DNA from: Desulfuromonadales bacterium
Lineage (GTDB): Bacteria; Desulfobacterota; Desulfuromonadia; Desulfuromonadales; BM103
Direction: 5' to 3'
Assembly (NCBI GenBank): GCA_030145195.1
Contig: JAQYVY010000013.1
Location: forward strand, 1-64,000
DNA: 64,000 nt
Part shown: piece after piece, positions 15,434 to 26,026 of the stretch
How the letters are laid out: each line of letters opens with the position of its first letter
Numbering within the stretch: position 1 is the stretch's first letter
Program-made: the position numbers and the translations under genes
Notes under the pieces: model-generated
Told to the model about the DNA's origin: nothing
Databases searched by the model: none
The model's input: the letters and a program-made list of their open reading frames with translations, nothing else

Positions 15434-15958
15434 TTATTCACTTGGAACAATACTCTCGACGGAAATTTTCAGTACTTCATTTCCAGAATCATCATAACAA
15501 CTGCACGTTCTATCACCCGAGTTTTTCGGCGGCAGACCACTTGCCGAATACCCCTTCTCGAGACAGAAATCACTGCACAACATCCCATCGGTTTTGGGCC
15601 CAATATTACCCACACTCAATTGATGCAGCATGATCAATAAAATGGGGGCAACGGTTAAACCGACTGAAAACAGAAGATGCTTCTTGTTCAGAACCGGATC
15701 GGCTTCAAGTTTTTTCCCGGTCACAAACCCGAGAACGATTGAAGCGATCCACATCAGCAGAAAACTGAGGATCAGCAACAGTGGGAGGAGCGTGCCCGTC
15801 GAAACAGGCCAAGGATTATCACCAAAGACAAAAATCCACAGAAAACCCGCAGTCGCTCCAAAAATCAGAAAAGAGATTATCAGAGAGAAGAAGAACCCTG
15901 GCCCACCGAATAATATGGAATAGAGGTGTCTTTTTTTCATTTTAAAATCAGGTCTCAC
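15434..15958 (-). CDS. three-TM membrane protein with Cys-rich tail
   Basis: The 174-residue protein has membrane segments near 14-42 (FFFSLIISFLIFGATAGFLW), 57-80 (LLPLLLILSFLLMWIASIVL) and 95-112, then a soluble C-terminal domain with four cysteines (CSDFCLEKGY and CSCYDDSG). The family is not recognised. It starts with a GTG overlapping the TGA of the gene above (GTGA), or with ATG 15940. It is the last gene of the minus-strand run. Confidence 0.65.
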   Translation of the reverse strand: MRPDFKMKKRHLYSILFGGPGFFFSLIISFLIFGATAGFLWIFVFGDNPWPVSTGTLLPLLLILSFLLMWIASIVLGFVTGKKLEADPVLNKKHLLFSVGLTVAPILLIMLHQLSVGNIGPKTDGMLCSDFCLEKGYSASGLPPKNSGDRTCSCYDDSGNEVLKISVESIVPSE

Positions 15959-16446
15959 TTAGGAAAAAACTCTGGCATTTCATGGATCTTCTTTTTGTTC
16001 TTATCCATCCCCTCACCCGACAATCTTTTCGCAAACTTTATTGCAGACATCTTGCTGAACTGAACGGAATTGAATCCAATTACAACGGGATGATTCTCTT
16101 CCAATTCATAAAGATATGCTGTGATCAAATCCTTCTCGTCATAATCATGGTCACGATATTCTGCTCGTAATTCAAAGGGGAACTTTTCAATAAGTTCAAT
16201 AGGCTTTACGGTTCCAAACGGTTCGTCAGCTGTCCAGGTATCCCAATGATATTCAACGGCCAAAGAAGGATTTGGCCCGACCTTGTACCTGGAGATCAAA
16301 AAACCTCTTCTGTCCTCTATCCAAACGCCAACATAAGCATTTCTGGCACATATTTTATAACTGTACCCTTCTTTCAATTGCTCCATCTTAAGATAGTCTT
16401 CACTCTCTTGCATGTGACTGTAAAACTCATAACTTTCATCGCTCAT
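15955..16446 (-). CDS. hypothetical protein
   Basis: This 163-residue soluble protein is rich in aromatic and acidic residues and has blocks NAYVGVWIEDRRGFLISRYK and EYHWDTWTADEPFGTVKPIE. No known motif. It overlaps its upstream neighbour by four bases (ATGA) and its downstream neighbour by four, so three small genes form a coupled set. Such small unknowns with overlapping ends are common among polymorphic-toxin immunity genes, but nothing here shows that role. Confidence 0.7.
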   Translation of the reverse strand: MSDESYEFYSHMQESEDYLKMEQLKEGYSYKICARNAYVGVWIEDRRGFLISRYKVGPNPSLAVEYHWDTWTADEPFGTVKPIELIEKFPFELRAEYRDHDYDEKDLITAYLYELEENHPVVIGFNSVQFSKMSAIKFAKRLSGEGMDKNKKKIHEMPEFFPK

Positions 16447-16817
16447 TTATGCCCCTTTTCGCCTGCGGGTGTGTCCGGGTCATCATCGTATGGAGGTGCC
16501 CAATGTTCTGACTTGTTTTTGTTGAATGGGGTGTCTGGTCCACTACGAGGTAATGAATAATTATATATTATGAAGGTTTTATCAGCTTTTTTTAAACGAT
16601 TCATTTCTTTCGTTGCTTCATAGGTAGATATCTTACATTTCTCGAAAAACTCATCACCTTCGTATTCAGAACTTCGAGAAAATACATGCCAATAATATTT
16701 GTAGAATCTAGGATTAGGGTGCATTCTCTGTGAAAAAAGAACCCCTTTACGACCTTGCTCTGCAAATTTTTCAAGATTCTTAAAGTATGGATCTTTAAGA
16801 CTTCGATTTCCTCTCAT
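16443..16817 (-). CDS. hypothetical protein
   Basis: The 124-residue protein is basic in its N-terminal half (MRGNRSLKDPYFKNLEKFAE) and ends in an acidic, Pro-rich segment (PPYDDDPDTPAGEKGHK). A YKYYWHVFSRSSEY segment is notable for aromatics. Not recognised. It overlaps the next gene by ATGA and follows the HAD-like gene by 17 bases. Confidence 0.65.
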   Translation of the reverse strand: MRGNRSLKDPYFKNLEKFAEQGRKGVLFSQRMHPNPRFYKYYWHVFSRSSEYEGDEFFEKCKISTYEATKEMNRLKKADKTFIIYNYSLPRSGPDTPFNKNKSEHWAPPYDDDPDTPAGEKGHK

Positions 16818-16834
16818 TTAGTCTCCCTGTCTCT

Positions 16835-17332
16835 CTATAGTTGCCCCATAATCTCACTGCCGTCGGCAAATAATTCGTAATGGGTCAACAGCAGATTTTT
16901 GTGAACAAGGTTCTCTCTCAAGTGCTCTAACAATCCCTTATCATCATCAATAACCCTGACCTGAGTTGCCTGGCTCAATTGAATCGACTGGCCTATAACA
17001 GAAGCCTTCCAGGCATAATAATCAGCCATGACATACGCATGTTCTTCGGGGTAGTAGAAGATGTTATCGATGTTGAGAGAATGTTCTAGAATGACTTTTT
17101 CTGTGATCTCGGAGAGGTAAGATTTCTTTCGGCCGGTAATGATATTTACCGTCGCGCCATCTGCTTGGTACTCGGACATAATCGTCTTGATTGTATCGCT
17201 AGTGATGGGGTTCTCGTTGTAGGCTTTGGTGACCAGGGCAGTAAAATCTTGTGAGGAAATGTTTGAGGTATTGATGTTGTGCATTTCGTTGCAGACTATG
17301 ACTCCGTCGAAATCGCACCATAGTTCTTTCAT
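16835..17332 (-). CDS. HAD-superfamily hydrolase-like protein
   Basis: The 165-residue protein carries the HAD motifs: I, CDFDGV (Asp7 nucleophile, Asp9); II, IITGRKKSY (Thr after a hydrophobic strand); III, a Lys in YAWKASVI; IV, VIDDDKG. It lacks a large cap, so it may act on macromolecular or phosphate-ester substrates. The substrate is unknown. It lies 31 bases downstream of the SUKH/TPR gene in the same run. Confidence 0.7.
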   Translation of the reverse strand: MKELWCDFDGVIVCNEMHNINTSNISSQDFTALVTKAYNENPITSDTIKTIMSEYQADGATVNIITGRKKSYLSEITEKVILEHSLNIDNIFYYPEEHAYVMADYYAWKASVIGQSIQLSQATQVRVIDDDKGLLEHLRENLVHKNLLLTHYELFADGSEIMGQL

Positions 17333-17363
17333 TCAAGCTTTCTCCAAATTAATTTTGATTCGA

Positions 17364-18845
17364 TCATTCTGAACCGAACATCTCCTCACGCATTTCCAAC
17401 TCTTTTTTTTGACATCGCTGCGCTTCCTCTTCATTACCAATCTTTTCCCATGCCCTTGCACAATCTCCCCAATAGCCAGGATGATCAATAAGCGGTTCCG
17501 CTTTGGTCAGACATCGAGTTGCGGCATCGATGTCTGAAAACTTCTCAAACCACATAGCTGCTGCCCAAGCTAGAGCACTAATATCGTTATCCACTTCGAT
17601 CAGACCCTCGCATTGGATAAGGCATCTTTTGGCATTTTCCATCTCTCCAGTTTTGTACCAGCTATCGGCGATGTAGTAATAGTCATCCACCGACTTAGAC
17701 ACCGCTTCAGCGTTCTTAAGGCAACGGCAAGCCTCGTCCTTCATGCTTAACTCTTCATTCCAGAAATCAGCACAACGATCCCAATCATCGCGATCCACCC
17801 CCATAGACTCAGACATTCTCAAACAGCGAATCGCTTCATCTTTTTGCTTCCTCACATGCAACCAATTCTCAGCGCATTTAAGCCAATCATAGGCTCGATC
17901 TGCTTGCTTTTCAGCCAAAGCTGGGTTAAGACGACACAGTCCCTTTTCCGCCAACTCCCTGACTTCACGTCGTTCATGCTTATGCAGCTTTTCCAGACGT
18001 GCTTTATGGTCCGATGAAACTTTATCCCTAAAGAACAAATCGCTACCAGTTAAAGAAGAGTACCCCTTGTTGATTTGATCCTCTATTTGCGCGAGCGCTT
18101 TTGAAAGCTCATCGTTTCCCCTGAGAAGATCTTTAACAAAGGTCCTCAATCTTGGAATCAGACGCCGTTTTTGATGAGCTTCTTCCATATCCATAAAAAA
18201 GTTCATCATGGAAATTGCCGTAGCCGCTTGAGAGTTTTTACTCTCTCCACAACCATCCGCCTCTTTCCGATCAAAATCAGCAACACGTTGCAAAGCAGCA
18301 GACAGGTTCGCATCTATTTCTAAAAAGTTTTCTTGCTTCAACAAATCCAAAGAGCCGCGTTGTTCTGGTGACAGATCACACTCGCTGAGCAGTTCGGACA
18401 CCTCGACGATGCACTTGATAAGATACATTGGCCACGATGATGCAATGACCTCCTTATCCTCTTTGGAAAGCACAACAGGTGTCAATCCATCCGTGTCGAC
18501 GGCACCTGGTTCAATATCTACGCTGCCAGAATCCCAGCTACTTACATAAACTCCACTCCTCTCACCCAAATAACCATACAGGTGAAAAGTTTCTTGGAGT
18601 TCATACGGGGAAACAATTCGTAGGCTTCCTTCAAGAAATTCAATTCTCCCGGAGCCAAAGTTACTTAACCAGTATCTGAAATCATCCGGGTAGTTAATGT
18701 CGAGCAACCCTTCAAATTCTGAGATCTGTTGCTCGTCCATAGGAACAAGCTTCATATAGTTGATAAGAGGCTTGGCCTTTTCAATGTAATCCCAAGCAAG
18801 TTGTGTTTGACATTTCAGTTCTTCAGAAAATACTTGTTTAGCCAT
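17364..18845 (-). CDS. SUKH (SMI1/KNR4) domain plus TPR-like repeats
   Basis: This about 493-residue protein has an N-terminal SUKH-type domain (EQQISEFEGLLDINYPDDFR, then YWLSNFGSGRIEF; about 40-160), a charged helical middle (190-310) and at least four C-terminal repeats of about 33-35 residues with consensus W-x2-CA-x2-W-x6-(D/E)-EA-RCL-x2-AE (about 325-480). SUKH proteins are frequent immunity or effector-binding proteins; the repeats should form a TPR-like scaffold. ATG 18845 has GGGGAA upstream and is preferred to ATG 18857. Its place in the WYL/DnaB-like run suggests a sensor or scaffold role, which is inference. Confidence 0.75.
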   Translation of the reverse strand: MAKQVFSEELKCQTQLAWDYIEKAKPLINYMKLVPMDEQQISEFEGLLDINYPDDFRYWLSNFGSGRIEFLEGSLRIVSPYELQETFHLYGYLGERSGVYVSSWDSGSVDIEPGAVDTDGLTPVVLSKEDKEVIASSWPMYLIKCIVEVSELLSECDLSPEQRGSLDLLKQENFLEIDANLSAALQRVADFDRKEADGCGESKNSQAATAISMMNFFMDMEEAHQKRRLIPRLRTFVKDLLRGNDELSKALAQIEDQINKGYSSLTGSDLFFRDKVSSDHKARLEKLHKHERREVRELAEKGLCRLNPALAEKQADRAYDWLKCAENWLHVRKQKDEAIRCLRMSESMGVDRDDWDRCADFWNEELSMKDEACRCLKNAEAVSKSVDDYYYIADSWYKTGEMENAKRCLIQCEGLIEVDNDISALAWAAAMWFEKFSDIDAATRCLTKAEPLIDHPGYWGDCARAWEKIGNEEEAQRCQKKELEMREEMFGSE

Positions 18846-18895
18846 TGTTTTCCCCATAGTTGGCAGATAACCAATTCACGCTTGCAATATTCCCG

Positions 18896-19288
18896 CTAGC
18901 CCCAATCGTCTTCATCGAAAAGAGCAGAAAGGTCTTCTGATCTTGTGGTGTAGTGGGAGTCTGTTTTCCACTTCACCTCGCACCCGTCGAGTTCAAAAAA
19001 AGCGATGATCCTCTCTTTGTTTTCCGTGCTGAACAGTGTTGAGTCCATGTAGACAATTGCGTGCTGGTCGTTCTTATTCCAAAGCACCCGACCGCGCGGG
19101 ATACTGTAATACTCTTGGCCGCGCAACTCAGGGAAGTCAGCCAGCAGAGTTCGCTCTTCGTCCCAAACGTCGGTGTGATTTTTGGGACTGTCTATCAGGC
19201 CTGGATAAGACTCTTCCCCTGCCGAAACAGGGGAAGCATGGCCGATGACTTTTTCTTTGTAGAACCAGAAGATTCCGATTTTAGGCAT
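18896..19288 (-). CDS. conserved-looking 130-aa hypothetical protein
   Basis: The protein starts MPKIGIFWFYKEKVIGHASP and has RGQEYYSIPRGRVLWNK and HAIVYMDSTL, a pattern I remember from small unnamed proteins in many proteobacteria, without known function. It follows the PD-(D/E)XK-like gene by 14 bases and precedes the SUKH gene. Soluble, no metal motif. Confidence 0.75.
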   Translation of the reverse strand: MPKIGIFWFYKEKVIGHASPVSAGEESYPGLIDSPKNHTDVWDEERTLLADFPELRGQEYYSIPRGRVLWNKNDQHAIVYMDSTLFSTENKERIIAFFELDGCEVKWKTDSHYTTRSEDLSALFDEDDWG

Positions 19289-19302
19289 GATCTCTTCTTT
19301 GC

Positions 19303-20298
19303 CTAGAGCTTTTTGCCCTGGCCACCTATCTGCTCAGCGAAAGTATCCTTGAAGCTTTTCAAATCATACATGCACTTGTCGTAGAGCGAATATCCCGTAA
19401 AGTTAGCCACGGCAATTTTGAGTTCGGCATTTTTCATGGGTAGTAACCCATCGGCCTCCATCTGAGTTAATATCTTTAGGAGCAGTGGGCTATTAGGGCT
19501 ATGAGCAGCAAGGAGCAAAATAAATTCTGGTTTTTCATCCGAAAGCGCCTCAATCTCATTATCATTATGAATTTCATTTTCCTTGGTCCCTTGCAGGCTT
19601 CTGATGATGCCAAGTTCACGTTTTTGCTTAAAAACGCCCTTCATTTCTTTTATAAAACTCGCTTTATTGTCAGAACCACCCAACAAATCTTCGACATCTT
19701 TTACATGCTGAACAAGACCGGAGGGGTCACCGAGGCTTTTGTCGCCAAACTTCATCTCGATTAAAGCGAGCCTGACCCGCTTCCCAGGAGAGGACCTATG
19801 TTTGGTTTGCCATTTAAAAGCGACCATATCGCAACGACCAACGTTGGCGTATTCAATGTCAGCAATGAAGTAATCTGATCTGGTAGCCACATCCATGGCT
19901 GCATTATTGTTCTCGCGAACCACGTGTTGTTGATACTCTCTCTCCAGCTTTTCACTTTCCCCGCGATGTTCATCAATAGACTGCTTGATAAAGGGGATTG
20001 CATCAAGCCACAGAGAAACATCATCTGAAGTATTCAATTTTGAAGGTAGTTTCTTTAACCCTTCTTCGTAACGATTATTCTTACAATAGTTGGTATCAAA
20101 CGAAGCCGCATAACTGCCGTTCTTCTGTTCAACAACTAACACCCTGCCGCCCCGATAATAGATATGGACCTCGTTGGCACGAATATGAAAATCCAGGGTC
20201 ATGTCACGCTTAACCATTTGGATAATCCCTTCAAGCATGCCACCGTTACTCAAAGCACCCATAAAAGCGTTGTTAAGAGTTCTCAGTTTTTTTAACAT
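19303..20298 (-). CDS. PD-(D/E)XK nuclease-like protein
   Basis: The 331-residue protein has a candidate PD-(D/E)XK core: an acidic residue in strand GRCDMVAFKW (Asp157) followed by LALIEMKFGD (Glu181-x-Lys183), with IADIEY just before. The N-terminal part (1-130) contains a strand-rich region and a charged helix. Recall of the family is lacking, so nuclease activity is inferred from these residues only. ATG 20298 is selected over the frame start at 20346 because GGAGGTG lies just upstream. It lies 61 bases below the DnaB-like gene. Confidence 0.65.
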   Translation of the reverse strand: MLKKLRTLNNAFMGALSNGGMLEGIIQMVKRDMTLDFHIRANEVHIYYRGGRVLVVEQKNGSYAASFDTNYCKNNRYEEGLKKLPSKLNTSDDVSLWLDAIPFIKQSIDEHRGESEKLEREYQQHVVRENNNAAMDVATRSDYFIADIEYANVGRCDMVAFKWQTKHRSSPGKRVRLALIEMKFGDKSLGDPSGLVQHVKDVEDLLGGSDNKASFIKEMKGVFKQKRELGIIRSLQGTKENEIHNDNEIEALSDEKPEFILLLAAHSPNSPLLLKILTQMEADGLLPMKNAELKIAVANFTGYSLYDKCMYDLKSFKDTFAEQIGGQGKKL

Positions 20299-20359
20299 TT
20301 TCACCTCCGTTGATTTTGTGGTGATCCATTCATTGCAAAAATGCATTCCAAATGGAAAT

Positions 20360-21265
20360 TCAGCAGAACAGCCAGCCGTTGATTAAAGTTGAAGCTAAGT
20401 GTACGCATCCAGCACAATTTTTGCGACTTTTTTCAATGATTACACTCAATATGCAGTTGTCAGGCGAAGGGCCACCACTTCTCTCAGGCATAACATTCCG
20501 ATGAAAAAACATGACGGTATCAGCATATTTGTCGATCGAGGAAGTTTCGGGAACACTCATCAAATCAGCCAGAATCGGCATTTGCCCAGTATAGTGAGTC
20601 TGACCGCCACGGCACTCCGGGTAGAGCAGAGAGTTAAGTATCAATGGGACGTTTCCGGATCGGGCAATATCTGCCAATTCAGAGAGAATCGCATCGATCT
20701 CGTCCTTTCTGGTAGCAGCGCCCCCCCACCCCTGGATGAGTTGTAAATAGTCAACAATAACCAAACCAGGCAGCACTCCATATTCTCCAACTAGACATTC
20801 ATCCAAGTGGCGGCGGATGTCATGTGCGGTAAGTCCATTTGAGTCGTTGATATAGAGAGGTATCTCTTGGAAGTTCTTCTGCACTGCCTGAACCTTTTCT
20901 TCGTCTTCCTTTCTCAAGTGTCCAGTTGCCAAACGGGATCTATCAACCTGCGCTATTTTGGCTAACAGCCTTTCGGCCAACTTCCAGCGCTTTCGGCCCA
21001 AGCTGAAATAAGCCACCGGAACCTTCTGCTTGCTGGCAACATCCCAAGCCAGACATTCTAGAAAATCGTCTTGTCCCATATGGGGGAAACCGGAGACGAT
21101 TACCAACTCCCCTGGATGGAAACCTCCCGTGAAATCATCCAAGGTTTTCAGCCCAGTCTTGATGCCGGTAACCTCACCCAACTTTATAGAGGGGGTATCC
21201 ATATACTGTTGAACAATGGCCCCAATTTTCAGGAAAGGATATTGCTGGTCATGTTGGTCAATCAT
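20360..21265 (-). CDS. DnaB-like RecA-fold protein with degenerate ATPase site
   Basis: The 301-residue protein aligns by eye with the C-terminal motor domain of replicative helicase DnaB: IKTGLKTLDDFTGGFHPGEL, LVIVDYLQLIQ (Walker B), DKYADTVMFFHR and IEKSRKN (arginine-finger region). Key residues are lost: Walker A reads FPHMGQDDF instead of PSMGKTTF, so the Lys and Thr are gone; the FSLEMS catalytic Glu is Gly (FSLGRK); the motif-3 Gln is missing (LILNSLLY). The DnaB N-terminal domain is absent. It is probably a non-hydrolysing partner or decoy of DnaB. It lies in the WYL-controlled run. Confidence 0.8.
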   Translation of the reverse strand: MIDQHDQQYPFLKIGAIVQQYMDTPSIKLGEVTGIKTGLKTLDDFTGGFHPGELVIVSGFPHMGQDDFLECLAWDVASKQKVPVAYFSLGRKRWKLAERLLAKIAQVDRSRLATGHLRKEDEEKVQAVQKNFQEIPLYINDSNGLTAHDIRRHLDECLVGEYGVLPGLVIVDYLQLIQGWGGAATRKDEIDAILSELADIARSGNVPLILNSLLYPECRGGQTHYTGQMPILADLMSVPETSSIDKYADTVMFFHRNVMPERSGGPSPDNCILSVIIEKSRKNCAGCVHLASTLINGWLFC

Positions 21266-21350
21266 ATTTGTTTCCCGATTACTTTAGTTCAAGAGGACAG
21301 AGAAGGAGATTCTAGTATCTGCCCTGCTCATATTGGATACAAAGAAGCCT

Positions 21351-21695
21351 TCAATCAACCTCAACAATCATAGGCTTACTCCATTTTGAGGTTATTCGCT
21401 TTGCGGGGGCAGGAAGCTCATTGCCCAGAGACTTCTGGTACTCGAACCAGATTCGCTCTGTTGCAACATCAATGCGATCCTCTGGCATATATGACGGATT
21501 ACCAAACCAATGATTAAAGACCTCGACAATGACCTGCCTGATATCATCGGCTGTTTTGCACTCGCCTAGACGACCAGTGATATCCTTTGCTTCAGGCTCA
21601 TATTCATCCTCTGGAGCATTAAAACCTGCATCAGTTGATTGAGAGACGATACCGACTAAATCGCACAAGAAGAGTATCTTGGTGATTTCATTCAT
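21351..21695 (-). CDS. DUF1871-like small protein
   Basis: This 114-residue protein has the segment YEPEAKDITGRLGECKTADD, then IRQVIVEVFNHWFG, a Y-x-x-E-x4-I...I-x3-F pattern reminiscent of DUF1871 proteins (unknown function, often beside toxin/immunity genes). The match is loose. It lies 63 bases after the metallo-beta-lactamase gene and 85 before the DnaB-like gene. Confidence 0.6.
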   Translation of the reverse strand: MNEITKILFLCDLVGIVSQSTDAGFNAPEDEYEPEAKDITGRLGECKTADDIRQVIVEVFNHWFGNPSYMPEDRIDVATERIWFEYQKSLGNELPAPAKRITSKWSKPMIVEVD

Positions 21696-21758: not shown

Positions 21759-23003
21759 TTATTCCAGCACAAAAGGGCAGTCATCTTCGATAGACACAAT
21801 ATTCTCAAAATTATCTGAATAGTCTTCTGCAAACTCGGTATGAATAGGCACTAAAGCCTTTGGGCTTATGGCCTGGGCAAAAGCTTTTAGATCATCCAGA
21901 GTCGCATGACCACTGGTATGTGCATAAGTGAAAGCGACCTTGGGATCGTCCTTCAAGCCAGCAATCTCCTCTGCTCCGTAATAATCATCGTTCGAATAGT
22001 CCAGATACCCTTGCCACTGGGAGTAGATAAGGTTGATCAGGCCACTTTCCTTAAACCTGCGCATCCATTTGAAGTGAGACATCTTGGCGAAGAATAGATA
22101 GTCAGCAGGCTTAGCTTCCAACTCGTCCACGGTGACCCGGTTATGCCAAATGCGACTGACAAAGCTTTTAAAGTAGTCATCACGGTTTGCCAGCAGGGTC
22201 TGATACTGGCTGTTACTGACGTACACTTTGATTAAGGGCCAGTTCATGTCTGGGACGTTTCTAGTGACAAGTTCCATCTTTTCGAGAACCCAGGCGGTAT
22301 AGACATCAAGAACCAGTATCTTCTCCGGCCCCATGCAAGCCTTGTAGGCAGAAACCAGCCGGTCAATGTTCTGTGATGACGAGATCAGAAAAGACATATT
22401 CTGTTGATCCTGAATCAACTCGGCAATCTTATGCTCGACATGTTCTTCGCTTGGGAATTCGCTGTTGTCCCGCCGCAGCATAGTCCCCTCCATGAAGAGC
22501 AGGTCAATATCGGCTGGTGGATTTTTGATCATCCGATCGAAGAGAACATTTCTGCGACCATGGGCACGAAAATCGCCACTATAGAAGATGCGTTTACCCT
22601 CCGCCTCGATGAGAAAGGCGTAGGCGTCAACGGCGGAATGATCTACCAGGTAGGGCGTGATCATAAAATCACCCACTTGGAATTTCTGGTTTTTTGTGAA
22701 GTGCTTGAAATTGTTCCTTGGCAAATCACGCTTCAGGAAGATGCGCGTGGCATCAATTAGGGACTTGCCGAGAGCGCCAATGTAGACTGGCGTCTCGGTA
22801 TCGAGTTGTTCAATGAGACCGTAGTGGTCTTGATGAGGGTGGCTGATCAATACAGCATCAGCTTTTAACTGTGTCGGATCAAGAATCCGACTGGCTTTAC
22901 TGAGAGGTGCGCCCAGATCCAAAAGAATGTTTGTCTGGCGGGTTGCAAGTTCAATGCATGTCCCGCCGATTTCTTTACTGCCGCGATGAATCGTAATCTT
23001 CAA
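21759..23003 (-). CDS. RNase J-like metallo-beta-lactamase-fold hydrolase
   Basis: The 414-residue protein has the complete metal site: HPHQDHYG (about 55-62), VDHSAVDAYAF (His about 120), SGDFRAHG (Asp about 143), TSGHA and PIHTEFA near the C-terminus. The N-terminal EIGGTCIELATRQTNILLDLG and the late His motifs resemble RNase J and beta-CASP nucleases, but the CASP insert is atypical. A hydrolytic nuclease role is likely, not shown. It starts at TTG 23003 with TAAGGAG upstream, the stop of a 19-codon leader frame overlapping that site. Preceded by a 298-base gap with the regulon palindrome. Confidence 0.85.
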   Translation of the reverse strand: MKITIHRGSKEIGGTCIELATRQTNILLDLGAPLSKASRILDPTQLKADAVLISHPHQDHYGLIEQLDTETPVYIGALGKSLIDATRIFLKRDLPRNNFKHFTKNQKFQVGDFMITPYLVDHSAVDAYAFLIEAEGKRIFYSGDFRAHGRRNVLFDRMIKNPPADIDLLFMEGTMLRRDNSEFPSEEHVEHKIAELIQDQQNMSFLISSSQNIDRLVSAYKACMGPEKILVLDVYTAWVLEKMELVTRNVPDMNWPLIKVYVSNSQYQTLLANRDDYFKSFVSRIWHNRVTVDELEAKPADYLFFAKMSHFKWMRRFKESGLINLIYSQWQGYLDYSNDDYYGAEEIAGLKDDPKVAFTYAHTSGHATLDDLKAFAQAISPKALVPIHTEFAEDYSDNFENIVSIEDDCPFVLE

Positions 23004-23013
23004 ATAGATCTCC

Positions 23014-23073
23014 TTATCTTAGGAGGTTGTACGAGAATGAATGACCGGCTGCAAACCCAGCGGTTTGGCCCAT
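23014..23073 (-). CDS. 19-codon leader reading frame before the metallo-beta-lactamase gene
   Basis: A small frame, ATG at 23073, encodes MGQTAGFAAGHSFSYNLLR and stops with TAA at 23014-23016. AAGGAG lies seven bases before the ATG, and the TAA forms the start of the next ribosome site (TAAGGAG), ten bases before the TTG of the next gene. The same TAAGGAG...CTATTTGAA junction joins the WYL and deacetylase genes. It could be a coupling peptide; no family. Confidence 0.4.
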   Translation of the reverse strand: MGQTAGFAAGHSFSYNLLR

Positions 23074-23207
23074 ATTTCAGCTCCTTTTCGGCCCATAGCT
23101 ACTGCTATGAGCTCTCAAACGATGCTAAAATCTGTTCTCAAACTTCTGGACTTTCGCTTCGACCCCTATTCTCGGACAGCCTCCTGTTAAAGTTTTGTCC
23201 TTACAGC

Positions 23208-23243
23208 TCTATAGAACCACACCTTCGCGACAGAATGTGTCGC
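23208..23243 (-). promoter_or_regulatory. promoter with regulon palindrome (site 1)
   Basis: GCGACAGAATGTGTCGC at 23227-23243 is a palindrome with perfect six-base arms around GAATG. On the minus strand a TATAGA -10 candidate (23208-23213) lies 14 bases below the 15-bp core, putting the site over the -35 region. The same core occurs twice upstream of the WYL gene, with similar -10 spacing. It probably controls the metallo-beta-lactamase gene and those downstream. Confidence 0.6.
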
Positions 23244-23301
23244 CCAAAAACTGATCACAGCATTTTGACATTATGCGCAGGCAGTGCCCGTGCCTTTGAA
23301 A

Positions 23302-24285
23302 CTATGAAATAGCTATGACTCTGGTTATCAAATTTTCAATGGAATCTGCAATGATTGAAGCACTGGTCTTGGTATAACCACCGGACAACAGCATGAGAAT
23401 AGGTATGTCCCGGTTTATTGCATTCAAAAAGACGATTTCATCCCTTTTGATAATGCCCGCCCGGCTGATGTTCATTGCTCCGAGCGGATCTTCCTCATAA
23501 ATATCCGTCCCAGCATTGTAGATGACAAAATCGGCCTGACAGGCATCCATCGCCTCAGGGATGACGCGTTCCAACAGTGAAAGATACTCGGCATCCTCAA
23601 TATTGGCCAAAACCGGAATAGGAATGTGGACATGTCTCTCCGCCTCCATGTCATCTGGGAAAATCTGGCAGTTATATACATCCAGAATGGAGAGATCAGG
23701 AATCGACTGCAAGGTATCTGAAACTCCGTTGCCCTGATGTGCGTCCAGGTCAATCACCAGTATTTTGATCCCAGGATTGGTGTTACGCAGTTTCATAACC
23801 GCCAGAGGAATGTCGGCAAAGAAGCAGAAACCGCTGCCGCAATCTCGCTTGGCATGATGGTACCCGCCCGAGAGGTTAATGGACCAGCCATGTTTGAGCG
23901 CCAGGTCGGCGCCCATCAAAGTGCCTGCCGTAGCGTAACGCATTGGCTCTATCAGGCAGCTTTGGAGAACGTCGCTAGCCAAAAGCCCAAGAAAAGGGAC
24001 CTCTGCAATTTGTGCCACAGTAGAAGGATTTTTTAAAGACTCCAGATAGTCTGGATGATGAATCTCCAGAAGATCCTCATCGCTGATCGCTTCCGGGTGG
24101 TGGATATCTGTATAGGCAAGCCCGAGTCTCTCCGACAGCATTTCAAATACGCGGCCATATTTCTTGGAGTCAAAGGGATGCAGCTTTTCCAAGCCCATGA
24201 AAGAGATGTTGTACTCATCCGAATAAACGATAGGGAGTTTCTCTTTTGTCTGCTTACAGGTATCCGTTGCGGTATTTTTTTTCAA
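23302..24285 (-). CDS. histone-deacetylase-fold (HDAC/AcuC superfamily) protein
   Basis: The 327-residue protein has arginase/deacetylase motifs: NLSGGYHHAKRDCGSGFCFF (tandem His and metal-site region), VIDLDAHQGNG (metal-binding DxH), YNAGTDIYEEDPLG (second metal Asp) and LSGGYTK. It resembles HDAC11-type bacterial homologues; substrates could be acetyl-lysine or other acyl amides. TTG 24285 is chosen: AAGGAG starts at the WYL stop codon (TAAGGAG), leaving a ten-base junction and giving normal N-terminal KLPIVYSDEY. The longer frame to 24453 overlaps the WYL gene. Tight coupling suggests joint function. Confidence 0.88.
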   Translation of the reverse strand: MKKNTATDTCKQTKEKLPIVYSDEYNISFMGLEKLHPFDSKKYGRVFEMLSERLGLAYTDIHHPEAISDEDLLEIHHPDYLESLKNPSTVAQIAEVPFLGLLASDVLQSCLIEPMRYATAGTLMGADLALKHGWSINLSGGYHHAKRDCGSGFCFFADIPLAVMKLRNTNPGIKILVIDLDAHQGNGVSDTLQSIPDLSILDVYNCQIFPDDMEAERHVHIPIPVLANIEDAEYLSLLERVIPEAMDACQADFVIYNAGTDIYEEDPLGAMNISRAGIIKRDEIVFLNAINRDIPILMLLSGGYTKTSASIIADSIENLITRVIAIS

Positions 24286-24295
24286 ATAGTTCTCC

Positions 24296-25309
24296 TTACG
24301 GTTTGTACATCTGACACATATTCCGACAGGCTTCAGCAACCTGTTGCCTGAGATCCTGCGGTTCCAAAACTTCAACCTTGTCTCCAAAGCCCATAACCCA
24401 CCATTGAAGTTGCGAACTGTTGCGTACCCTTGCCTCGACTTTGACCCGGCCATCGGCTTGTATCGTCACCCTCTGATCGTCGGCAAGAGGTGCTTCATCC
24501 AGATGCTCCGCGACCTCTTTATCAAAAAGCGCCTTAAATCTCACCTTCCCTTCATCTTTGGTAAATTCGAAGCCACCAGCTTCAATATAGCGGTGGAGAT
24601 CAAACCCCTCAATCGGCGTGGAATCCGCGTCTAAGCATTTCGCTTCTACGATCCTGTGGAGGGCTAATTTATAGATGCCCCTCTGATCGGCAAAGTTACA
24701 AACCAGATAGAGAGTGGCGTCGACAAAGACCACCCCAAGCGGAGTGATTGTGTACTTTTCAGGTTGTTCTGTTCCCCTCTTTCTGTAGAAAAGCTCGATT
24801 TGCTGATTCATCAACAGCCCATCGTAGACGGCTGAAAGATGTTGTGTATTGATCTTGGGCGGCCGTAAAGACAAGTGACGCGAGATCCTGGCAATCTTTT
24901 TCGGCCACCCTCCGACCCCAGCACCGTCCAGCCCTTTTAAAACTTCACGCGCTTTGCTCATGTGAGGATTCAAAAACGATAGACAGCTTTCAGGCATCAG
25001 GGCTCCCAGATGCAACTTGGCCATCATGAAGGTCAGGGCGGTAAAGGGGTCCATCCCCGGGATCTCCAGAAAACTGGCATCTTCCGCCCAACGCCAACCT
25101 TTGACCGAGGCTTCGTCGCTTACCAACGGGAAGTTCAAGCGTGACAATTCGATTAAGTCTCGCTGAATCGTCCGTAACGACACGTCAACGCCAGCCTGCC
25201 GCAAAGAGATCTGCAACTCTCGTGTGCCGATAAATCTTTTGCGTGGAATCCTCTGCAAAAGCAACCAATGTCTCCAAACTGTTTCATGACTTTTTGCGCT
25301 GCCCATCAT
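24296..25309 (-). CDS. WYL-domain transcriptional regulator
   Basis: The 337-residue protein has an N-terminal winged helix (ELQISLRQAGVDVSLRTIQR, DLIELSRLNFPL) and a C-terminal WYL domain (IELFYRKRGTEQPEKYTITP, then LGVVFVDATLYLVCN and YKLALHRI), followed by a WCX-like end. WYL regulators such as BrxR and CapW repress phage-defence operons and may respond to nucleic acid. The gene starts with GGAGG four to seven bases upstream. Palindromes upstream (25350-25364, 25405-25419) suggest autoregulation. It is the first gene of the deacetylase operon. Confidence 0.9.
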   Translation of the reverse strand: MMGSAKSHETVWRHWLLLQRIPRKRFIGTRELQISLRQAGVDVSLRTIQRDLIELSRLNFPLVSDEASVKGWRWAEDASFLEIPGMDPFTALTFMMAKLHLGALMPESCLSFLNPHMSKAREVLKGLDGAGVGGWPKKIARISRHLSLRPPKINTQHLSAVYDGLLMNQQIELFYRKRGTEQPEKYTITPLGVVFVDATLYLVCNFADQRGIYKLALHRIVEAKCLDADSTPIEGFDLHRYIEAGGFEFTKDEGKVRFKALFDKEVAEHLDEAPLADDQRVTIQADGRVKVEARVRNSSQLQWWVMGFGDKVEVLEPQDLRQQVAEACRNMCQMYKP

Positions 25310-25349
25310 TAATCCTCCAACGACTTCTATCTAGCGTCTCATGGTTGCA

Positions 25350-25364
25350 CGACAAAATGCGTCG
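25350..25364 (-). promoter_or_regulatory. regulon palindrome (site 2)
   Basis: CGACAAAATGCGTCG has the core CGACA-N5-(T/C)GTCG with one arm mismatch. It lies 41 bases before the WYL start, likely in the leader of that transcript. It shares AATG in the spacer with site 1. Confidence 0.55.
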
Positions 25365-25383
25365 CCGCGATTCAATCAAGCAA

Positions 25384-25437
25384 AATATAGCGCAAAAAGC
25401 ACAACGACACAACTTGTCGCCCGCAATCATTATAAAT
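25384..25437. promoter_or_regulatory. divergent promoters with regulon palindrome (site 3)
   Basis: CGACACAACTTGTCG (25405-25419) has perfect five-base arms. On the plus strand TATAAAT (25431-25437) follows after 11 bases; on the minus strand TATATT (25384-25389) follows after 15. Both -35 regions would therefore lie inside this one palindrome, so a bound repressor would block both the WYL operon and the ankyrin gene. Inference from position; WYL binding is untested. Confidence 0.6.
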
Positions 25438-25462: not shown

Positions 25463-26026
25463 ATGAGAATGCCGAAGAAGATGACCGATGCCGCGTTAAA
25501 AGATGCCTTTAAAATCATTAAAGAGGGCACTCTTAACGAAATCAGACGACTCTTTGCTGAGGGCTTTGACCCAAAGTTTAACCATGACTTTATCTTGAGC
25601 CTGGCAGCCTCGCGTGGCTATTTGCCTCTGGTCGAATTTCTTGTTGAAACTCACAAACTGAATATCAATTGCTGGGAGGACTCACCGCTACGACATGCAG
25701 CAGGAGAGGGCCACCTTGAAGTCGTTGAGTATCTGGTTAGGAAAGGTGCGTACATCAGCTCAGAAGATTACAAAGCATTGCACTGGGCGGTCTGGCGAGG
25801 TCGTTACAAGGTTGTCCAATTCATACTCAGCCTTGGGGTTGACACAAAAGCATTAACTTCGGGAGATTTGACCATGGTCTGCTGTGCGGGTCATCTTGAT
25901 ATGGTTAAGCTGCTTGTCGAAGAATTGAATGTAAAAGCAAACAGCAACCATCTTCGGCTTGCTCGTATGGAAAAGCATGAAGAGGTCGCTGAGTATCTTG
26001 CGGGTCAAACAGGTCAAAAAGGATAA
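25463..26026 (+). CDS. ankyrin-repeat protein
   Basis: The 187-residue protein consists of about five ankyrin repeats from residue 30 on: LSLAASRGYLPLVEFLVE, LRHAAGEGHLEVVEYLVRKG, LHWAVWRGRYKVVQFIL and VCCAGHLDMVKLLVEE are typical helix pairs. It probably mediates protein binding. ATG 25463 follows AGGAGG by six bases; an in-frame TTG at 25457 is less likely. It is divergent from the WYL operon and shares its palindrome, and is followed by the Cys-rich gene after six bases. Confidence 0.88.
   Translation: MRMPKKMTDAALKDAFKIIKEGTLNEIRRLFAEGFDPKFNHDFILSLAASRGYLPLVEFLVETHKLNINCWEDSPLRHAAGEGHLEVVEYLVRKGAYISSEDYKALHWAVWRGRYKVVQFILSLGVDTKALTSGDLTMVCCAGHLDMVKLLVEELNVKANSNHLRLARMEKHEEVAEYLAGQTGQKG

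Follow-up and report, generated by a model that had tools for sequence, protein, structure and literature searches.

Which protein reads the palindromic boxes that recur beside the genes of this island, and does it switch those genes on or off? The window analysed here is a stretch of 64,000 nucleotides from a Desulfuromonadales bacterium, and the initial annotation had described in it three copies of the palindrome CGACA-N5-TGTCG, through which a single repressor would control the metallo-beta-lactamase, WYL and ankyrin transcripts. Two of these copies are exact (CGACANNNNNTGTCG, at 23228-23242 and 25405-25419), whereas 100 dinucleotide shuffles of the window gave a mean of 0.11 exact palindromes and in no case as many as two. 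The third, at 25350-25364 (CGACAAAATGCGTCG), has the right arm CGTCG and thus one mismatch to CGACA-N5-TGTCG. Taken as 17-mers, all three sites fit the form RCGACR-N5-YGTCGY derived below for the WYL family.

23227..23243, minus strand: box 1, GCGACACATTCTGTCGC, toward the metallo-beta-lactamase (MBL) operon, 12/12 to RCGACRN5YGTCGY
25349..25365, minus strand: box 2, GCGACGCATTTTGTCGT, toward the WYL gene and proximal to it, 12/12 to the family form
25404..25420, plus strand: box 3, ACGACACAACTTGTCGC, toward the ankyrin gene and proximal to it

Our preferred answer, to which we give a probability of about 0.65, is that the WYL regulator encoded in the island itself reads the boxes, as a homodimer of the DriD type that would activate all three units; binding, dimerisation, activation and the operon limits are what we infer in this proposal. 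The genes concerned are the following.

24296..25309, minus strand: WYL regulator of 337 aa (wHTH, three-helix region, WYL, WCX), the proposed reader of the boxes
23302..24285, minus strand: HDAC-family enzyme (histone deacetylase), with a TTG start preceded by AAGGAG, 10 bp after the WYL stop
21759..23003, minus strand: MBL with an RMMBL domain and RNase J/beta-CASP-like matches
15434..21695, minus strand: nine more ORFs, in the same direction and following the MBL gene, separated by gaps of less than 90 bp or overlapping
25463..26026, plus strand: ankyrin-repeat protein of 187 aa behind box 3, present as a single copy in the genome
26033..26281, plus strand: ORF of 82 aa, 6 bp behind the ankyrin gene, with no Pfam match

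The three boxes could serve three transcripts. The HDAC and WYL genes are likely to share one of them, and the 82-aa ORF probably belongs to the same unit as the ankyrin gene, 103 bp upstream of whose divergent neighbour, the WYL gene, box 3 also lies. Box 1 sits in the gap behind the HDAC gene, approximately 60 bp past its stop, and the first full-size gene behind it encodes the MBL. The nine ORFs that follow encode proteins of 114 aa, 301 aa (DnaB_C-like), 347, 130 and 497 aa, 165 aa (HAD-like), and 124, 163 and 174 aa; judging by their spacing, we propose that they form with the MBL gene a single ten-gene operon read from box 1. Among those island proteins that were scanned with PADLOC models, matches were confined to the WYL protein and, at a weak level, the ankyrin protein.

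Several smaller features of the putative operon were recorded. Between box 1 and the MBL gene lies a 19-codon ORF (23014-23073, minus strand; MGQTAGFAAGHSFSYNLLR), with AAGGAG before its ATG and its end 10 bp before the MBL start, which possibly encodes a small protein or leader peptide; upstream of it, the operon leader contains a perfect short hairpin, CATAGC-AGTA-GCTATG (23094-23109, minus strand). The 497-aa protein (17364-18857, minus strand) has only a sub-threshold SMI1/KNR4 match, and a 36% identical relative is encoded directly behind the WYL gene of locus L080. The 347-aa protein (19303-20346, minus strand) has no Pfam match, and a D...ExK arrangement (IEMK), noted by eye, suggests a PD-(D/E)XK nuclease. 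The comparison of the L080 proteins of 133 and 357 aa with the 130- and 347-aa proteins of the window failed, and they were not retained as relatives.

The search pattern was derived from the upstream DNA of the first 15 family members, the window included, in most of which the box is seen, and 80 loci were then drawn from GTDB genomes; scanning genome contigs with the single protein returned no relative, and the relatives were found by an alignment-based scan. A first pass over 96 loci gave 12/12 matches in 34 and matches of at least 11/12 in 55, compared with 0 and 0 for the reversed pattern and 0 and 1 for a gene-body control. This pass left out L059 and L083, which have short upstream DNA, and counted at least one locus twice (as L060 and L145); L066, L068, L081 and L087 were removed from later counts as repeats of earlier loci. 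The independent test comprised 71 of 76 loci kept from L055-L134, the remaining five being left out because the gene match was short or the upstream DNA insufficient. Among these 71 loci, from Desulfuromonadales, Beta- and Gammaproteobacteria, an upstream box was present at 12/12 in 22, at 11/12 or better in 40 and at 10/12 or better in 55 (reversed pattern: 0, 1 and 6, respectively), which leaves 16 without any site of at least 10/12. Permitting A or T at half-site position 4 gave 12/12 matches in 38 of the 71 (control 0), in a form picked after these loci had been seen. Recognition-helix residues were compared with the base at this position, and columns 44 and 53 differ; we set this correlation aside, as kinship may equally explain it.

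Among 20 more distant WYL loci, 19 have no site of at least 11/12, and the exception, L022, is a fragment of the present family; the box therefore belongs to this WYL family and not to WYL proteins generally. A GTGACAGAAT-like repeat by four distant WYL genes was dropped, as its match offsets place it probably within their coding sequence.

The distribution of the palindrome within the genome itself (3.40 Mb) points the same way. Eight exact copies occur there, against three of the reversed control; the window accounts for two of the eight, the surroundings of a second WYL gene in contig C69 for three, and other places for the remaining three. The C69 protein is the genome's other member of this family, 36% identical to the WYL protein of the window, and two boxes lie inside its upstream gap, which was the earliest strong indication that the box is read by the WYL protein; the third C69 box (13779) matches 11/12 and has no -10 at +19. 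The box is thus scarce outside WYL loci, as the earlier proposal of one regulon had required, and copies lying inside long open frames (C81, C77 and C92) or at the end of such a frame (C93) were discounted as probably due to chance. It is against this background that one must judge whether the boxes belong to some other regulator of this genome or are chance palindromes. Two points favour this explanation, the shortness of the motif and the location of three exact copies out of eight away from WYL loci, those in C81 and C93 within or at the end of long frames; set against the motif's conservation with the WYL family over the 71 independent loci and its absence at the more distant WYL loci, this explanation appears very improbable. 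That the WYL protein ties the separate parts of the island into one regulon, as first suggested, is well supported by these sequence comparisons, the box being conserved with the family and rare elsewhere in the genome.

The palindrome alone is not diagnostic across the genomes of relatives, since its counts there are unremarkable in most and often lower than those of the reversed control. Single copies in two relatives without the family (G002 and G005) both fall within coding frames and were rejected. One 17-mer, GCGACATGATACGTCGT, is found unchanged in ten or more genomes of the family; in G000 (C82:9041-9057) it lies outside any long open frame, and it is probably an unrelated conserved element.

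What kind of regulator, then, is the WYL protein? Its Pfam matches are WYL and WCX, and its recognition helix spans approximately residues 45-57. A PDB search with the 15-member profile returned DriD of Caulobacter first and PafBC second, and Foldseek, queried with the AlphaFold model (pLDDT 89.9), again placed DriD first over the whole length, followed by PafBC, with CapW and BrxR lower; a second structural aligner placed PafBC, CapW and BrxR close together. Alignment to DriD chain 8tp8_D (326 residues) covers 281 residues with a high rmsd of 13 A, which we read as a different domain orientation in the predicted model. As in DriD-type activators, wHTH, three-helix bundle, WYL and WCX are found in a single chain. 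All 87 of the 87 members have R46 and R50 in the recognition helix; the DriD residues aligned with this part read RRT..R, in a low-scoring stretch too weak to count alone.

Relatives of the protein also occur on mobile elements: an unannotated phage record from human faeces (MT835507, 19570-20577) encodes one that is 35% identical, and further relatives are found on plasmids. At some Nitrosomonadales loci (L099, L102 and L114) a second, shorter WYL ORF of 173-184 aa follows the first.

DriD is the WYL activator of an SOS-independent DNA-damage response in Caulobacter crescentus. In the available text of PMC12340889 its consensus site is ATACGAC(X)7GTCGTAT, and it acts as an activator whose site overlaps a poor -35, located at the centre of the site, at a constant distance to the -10. 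The CGAC-N7-GTCG core and its spacing are common to that consensus, to the family consensus and to all three boxes of the window.

The promoter geometry of the family boxes is of the same kind. Each 12/12 box was paired with a nearby gene, and near-identical site sequences (at least 75%) were merged, reducing 185 pairs to 165. A -10-like hexamer with at least 5/6 of TATAAT is located at centre+19 in 22 of the 165 deduplicated pairs, and no other offset between 9 and 73 has one in more than five pairs; in 500 shuffles the best-offset maxima had a mean of 4.9 and a top value of 9. At the 4/6 threshold the +19 hexamer is seen in 53 of 165 pairs against a background of 5%, with T at +16 and G at +17 enriched in the manner of an extended -10. 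Among 79 sites, such a hexamer faces the nearest gene in 31 and away from it in 13 (sign test, p 2e-4). The best -35 match at the 53 promoters averages 2.06, compared with 2.59 at random flank positions. Like those of DriD, therefore, the family boxes lie over the -35, at a constant -10 distance and with a poor -35; in the window this arrangement is clear only at box 3. A scan for consensus sigma-70 promoters found none at the boxes, an outcome expected without a -35 and no support by itself. In the three Caulobacter promoters printed in the accessible part of PMC12340889, aligned by eye, G stands at centre+17 and A at centre+20, so that, in our reading and not that of the paper, the Caulobacter -12 would also fall at centre+19.

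The corresponding hexamers of the window are of unequal quality.

25431..25436, plus strand: TATAAA, -10-like element of the ankyrin unit, exactly at centre+19 of box 3, 5/6
23211..23216, minus strand: TTCTAT, weak candidate -10 of the MBL operon, at centre+19 of box 1, preceded by TGG
25333..25338, minus strand: GACGCT, weak candidate -10 of the WYL-HDAC unit, at centre+19 of box 2, preceded by TGA

Both weak hexamers are thus preceded by TG plus one base. For the MBL operon, TATAGA at +22 of box 1 is an alternative, and the MBL gene starts approximately 207 bp past the candidate -10. The initial annotation had placed -10-like hexamers 11-15 bases from the first and third sites in each direction. 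This is borne out at the third (TATAAA follows after 11 bp on the right, and TATATT stands 15 bp away on the left) and on one side of the first, where TATAGA lies 14 bp to the left and no good -10 was seen to the right.

A composite of box and -10 was also searched for. In the genome of the window there was no exact match, and with up to one mismatch there were eight, compared with ten for the reversed control, a result not significant alone; the eight include all three boxes of the window, in the orientation of their nearest genes, and the C69 box that faces an AAA+ gene. Across 136 genomes of the order, the exact composite occurs in 12 of the 17 that have the family and in 12 of the 119 that lack it (p 2e-7). 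The reversed control is enriched with the family as well (11/17 versus 35/119, p 0.006), so the co-occurrence is only partly specific, and part of it reflects composition.

Activation from these sites would proceed as follows. The dimer would place a wHTH domain on each CGAC half-site, spanning the -35 region of a promoter that lacks a good -35 of its own, and RNA polymerase would be recruited by it to the -10, whose distance from the box centre is 19 bp. The ankyrin unit would be activated in this way from box 3 and the ten-gene MBL operon from box 1, and activation of the WYL-HDAC unit from box 2 would amount to positive feedback.

The repressor originally envisaged would resemble BrxR or CapW, bound to the boxes and blocking polymerase until a ligand frees it. 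There are precedents and local features in its favour: BrxR is a repressor whose inverted-repeat targets, according to the available text of PMC9122601, lie close to its own promoter; in a plausible WYL promoter, TTGTGT-17-TATATT, the -35 would be covered by box 3 and the start site would fall at box 2, an arrangement suited to autorepression; and paired boxes occur in several divergent gaps. A repressor, however, needs neither a fixed -10 register nor a missing -35, yet both are seen, and the activators DriD and PafBC outrank BrxR and CapW in fold and are the only ones to appear in the sequence search. Because of the fixed 19-bp register, the absent -35 and the kinship with DriD, we prefer activation and regard repression as less likely and, for the boxes as a whole, improbable.

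Equally improbable in our judgement is a mixed action, in which the dimer would use boxes 2 and 3 to repress the WYL gene while activating the ankyrin unit and the MBL operon. The register of box 3 is good toward the ankyrin gene, whereas the WYL-facing boxes of the window and of C69 have poor +19 hexamers; Caulobacter DriD, in the text available from PMC12340889, activates a divergent operon and not its own gene, and repression of the WYL gene itself from a DriD-like site is possible. Over the whole set, however, WYL-facing pairs carry a +19 hexamer of at least 4/6 as often (17/53) as all pairs do (53/165).

The activation of all three units by a DriD-type protein, which we continue to prefer, does not imply identity with DriD. 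The WYL protein of the window is approximately 21% identical to it, its half-site is GCGWCA as opposed to ATACGAC, its boxes serve its own gene as well as accessory gene islands, and one arginine of the ssDNA pair is replaced. That pair, two arginines three residues apart, is required for ssDNA binding in PafBC (PMC11804915, in its available text). By our residue mapping, the second arginine corresponds to R219, an Arg in 87 of 87 members, and the first to A216, an Ala in 59 of 87; Y201 is present in 81 of 87. The ligand may accordingly be ssDNA held differently or another nucleic-acid species, and the signal may be, for example, ssDNA or a related nucleic-acid ligand arising from DNA damage or invading DNA.

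PafBC of mycobacteria is likewise a WYL-WCX activator triggered by ssDNA (PMC11804915, available text), and differs in being a heterodimer that, in the accessible text of PMC12340889, binds promoters only with polymerase, and in ranking lower as a match. BrxR and CapW, from BREX and CBASS islands, are WYL regulators beside defence-like genes, and the operators of BrxR are inverted repeats with a 5-bp spacer; they differ in being repressors, in the longer BrxR half-sites of 10-11 bp (both from the text available for PMC9122601), and in a lower fold match with 11-14% identity to the WYL protein of the window.

The genes near the WYL gene vary from locus to locus. In 90 loci these include a tandem AAA+ ATPase (29), a DUF2779 Cas4-like nuclease (21), a DnaB_C ATPase (9), AddB-like (7) and AddA-like (6) proteins, MBL (6), sirtuin (6) and HDAC (2); the AAA+ protein matches IetA models of PADLOC. 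In other loci, boxes are also found upstream of several of these neighbours (AAA+, nuclease and helicase-like genes). At the six MBL loci, a 12/12 box precedes the MBL unit in four (the window, L041, L080 and L119), with weaker sites in L057 (10/12) and L062 (11/12). In the C69 WYL island (L039, 6551-13727) the WYL gene is accompanied by a tandem AAA+ ATPase gene in divergent orientation and, at a greater distance, by one for a GmrSD type IV restriction enzyme. A broader reading, which we hold tentatively and with somewhat less than even confidence, is that a DriD-type box ties changing sets of defence- or repair-like genes (AAA+, DUF2779, DnaB-like ATPase, sirtuin/HDAC, MBL nuclease, AddAB) to a nucleic-acid signal outside SOS in Desulfuromonadales, Beta- and Gammaproteobacteria, the window being one such island.

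In the literature searched, which mostly excluded subscription journals, we found no description of the operator of this WYL family, literal motif strings included. For this family there are now a proposed operator, the geometry of its promoters and a prediction of whether control is positive or negative, all of which can be tested with one protein and three short DNAs. As the box is recognisable together with its -10, it allows one to list what these islands would switch on together, and it raises the question of whether DNA-damage-style sensing may induce defence-like genes in bacteria far from Caulobacter.
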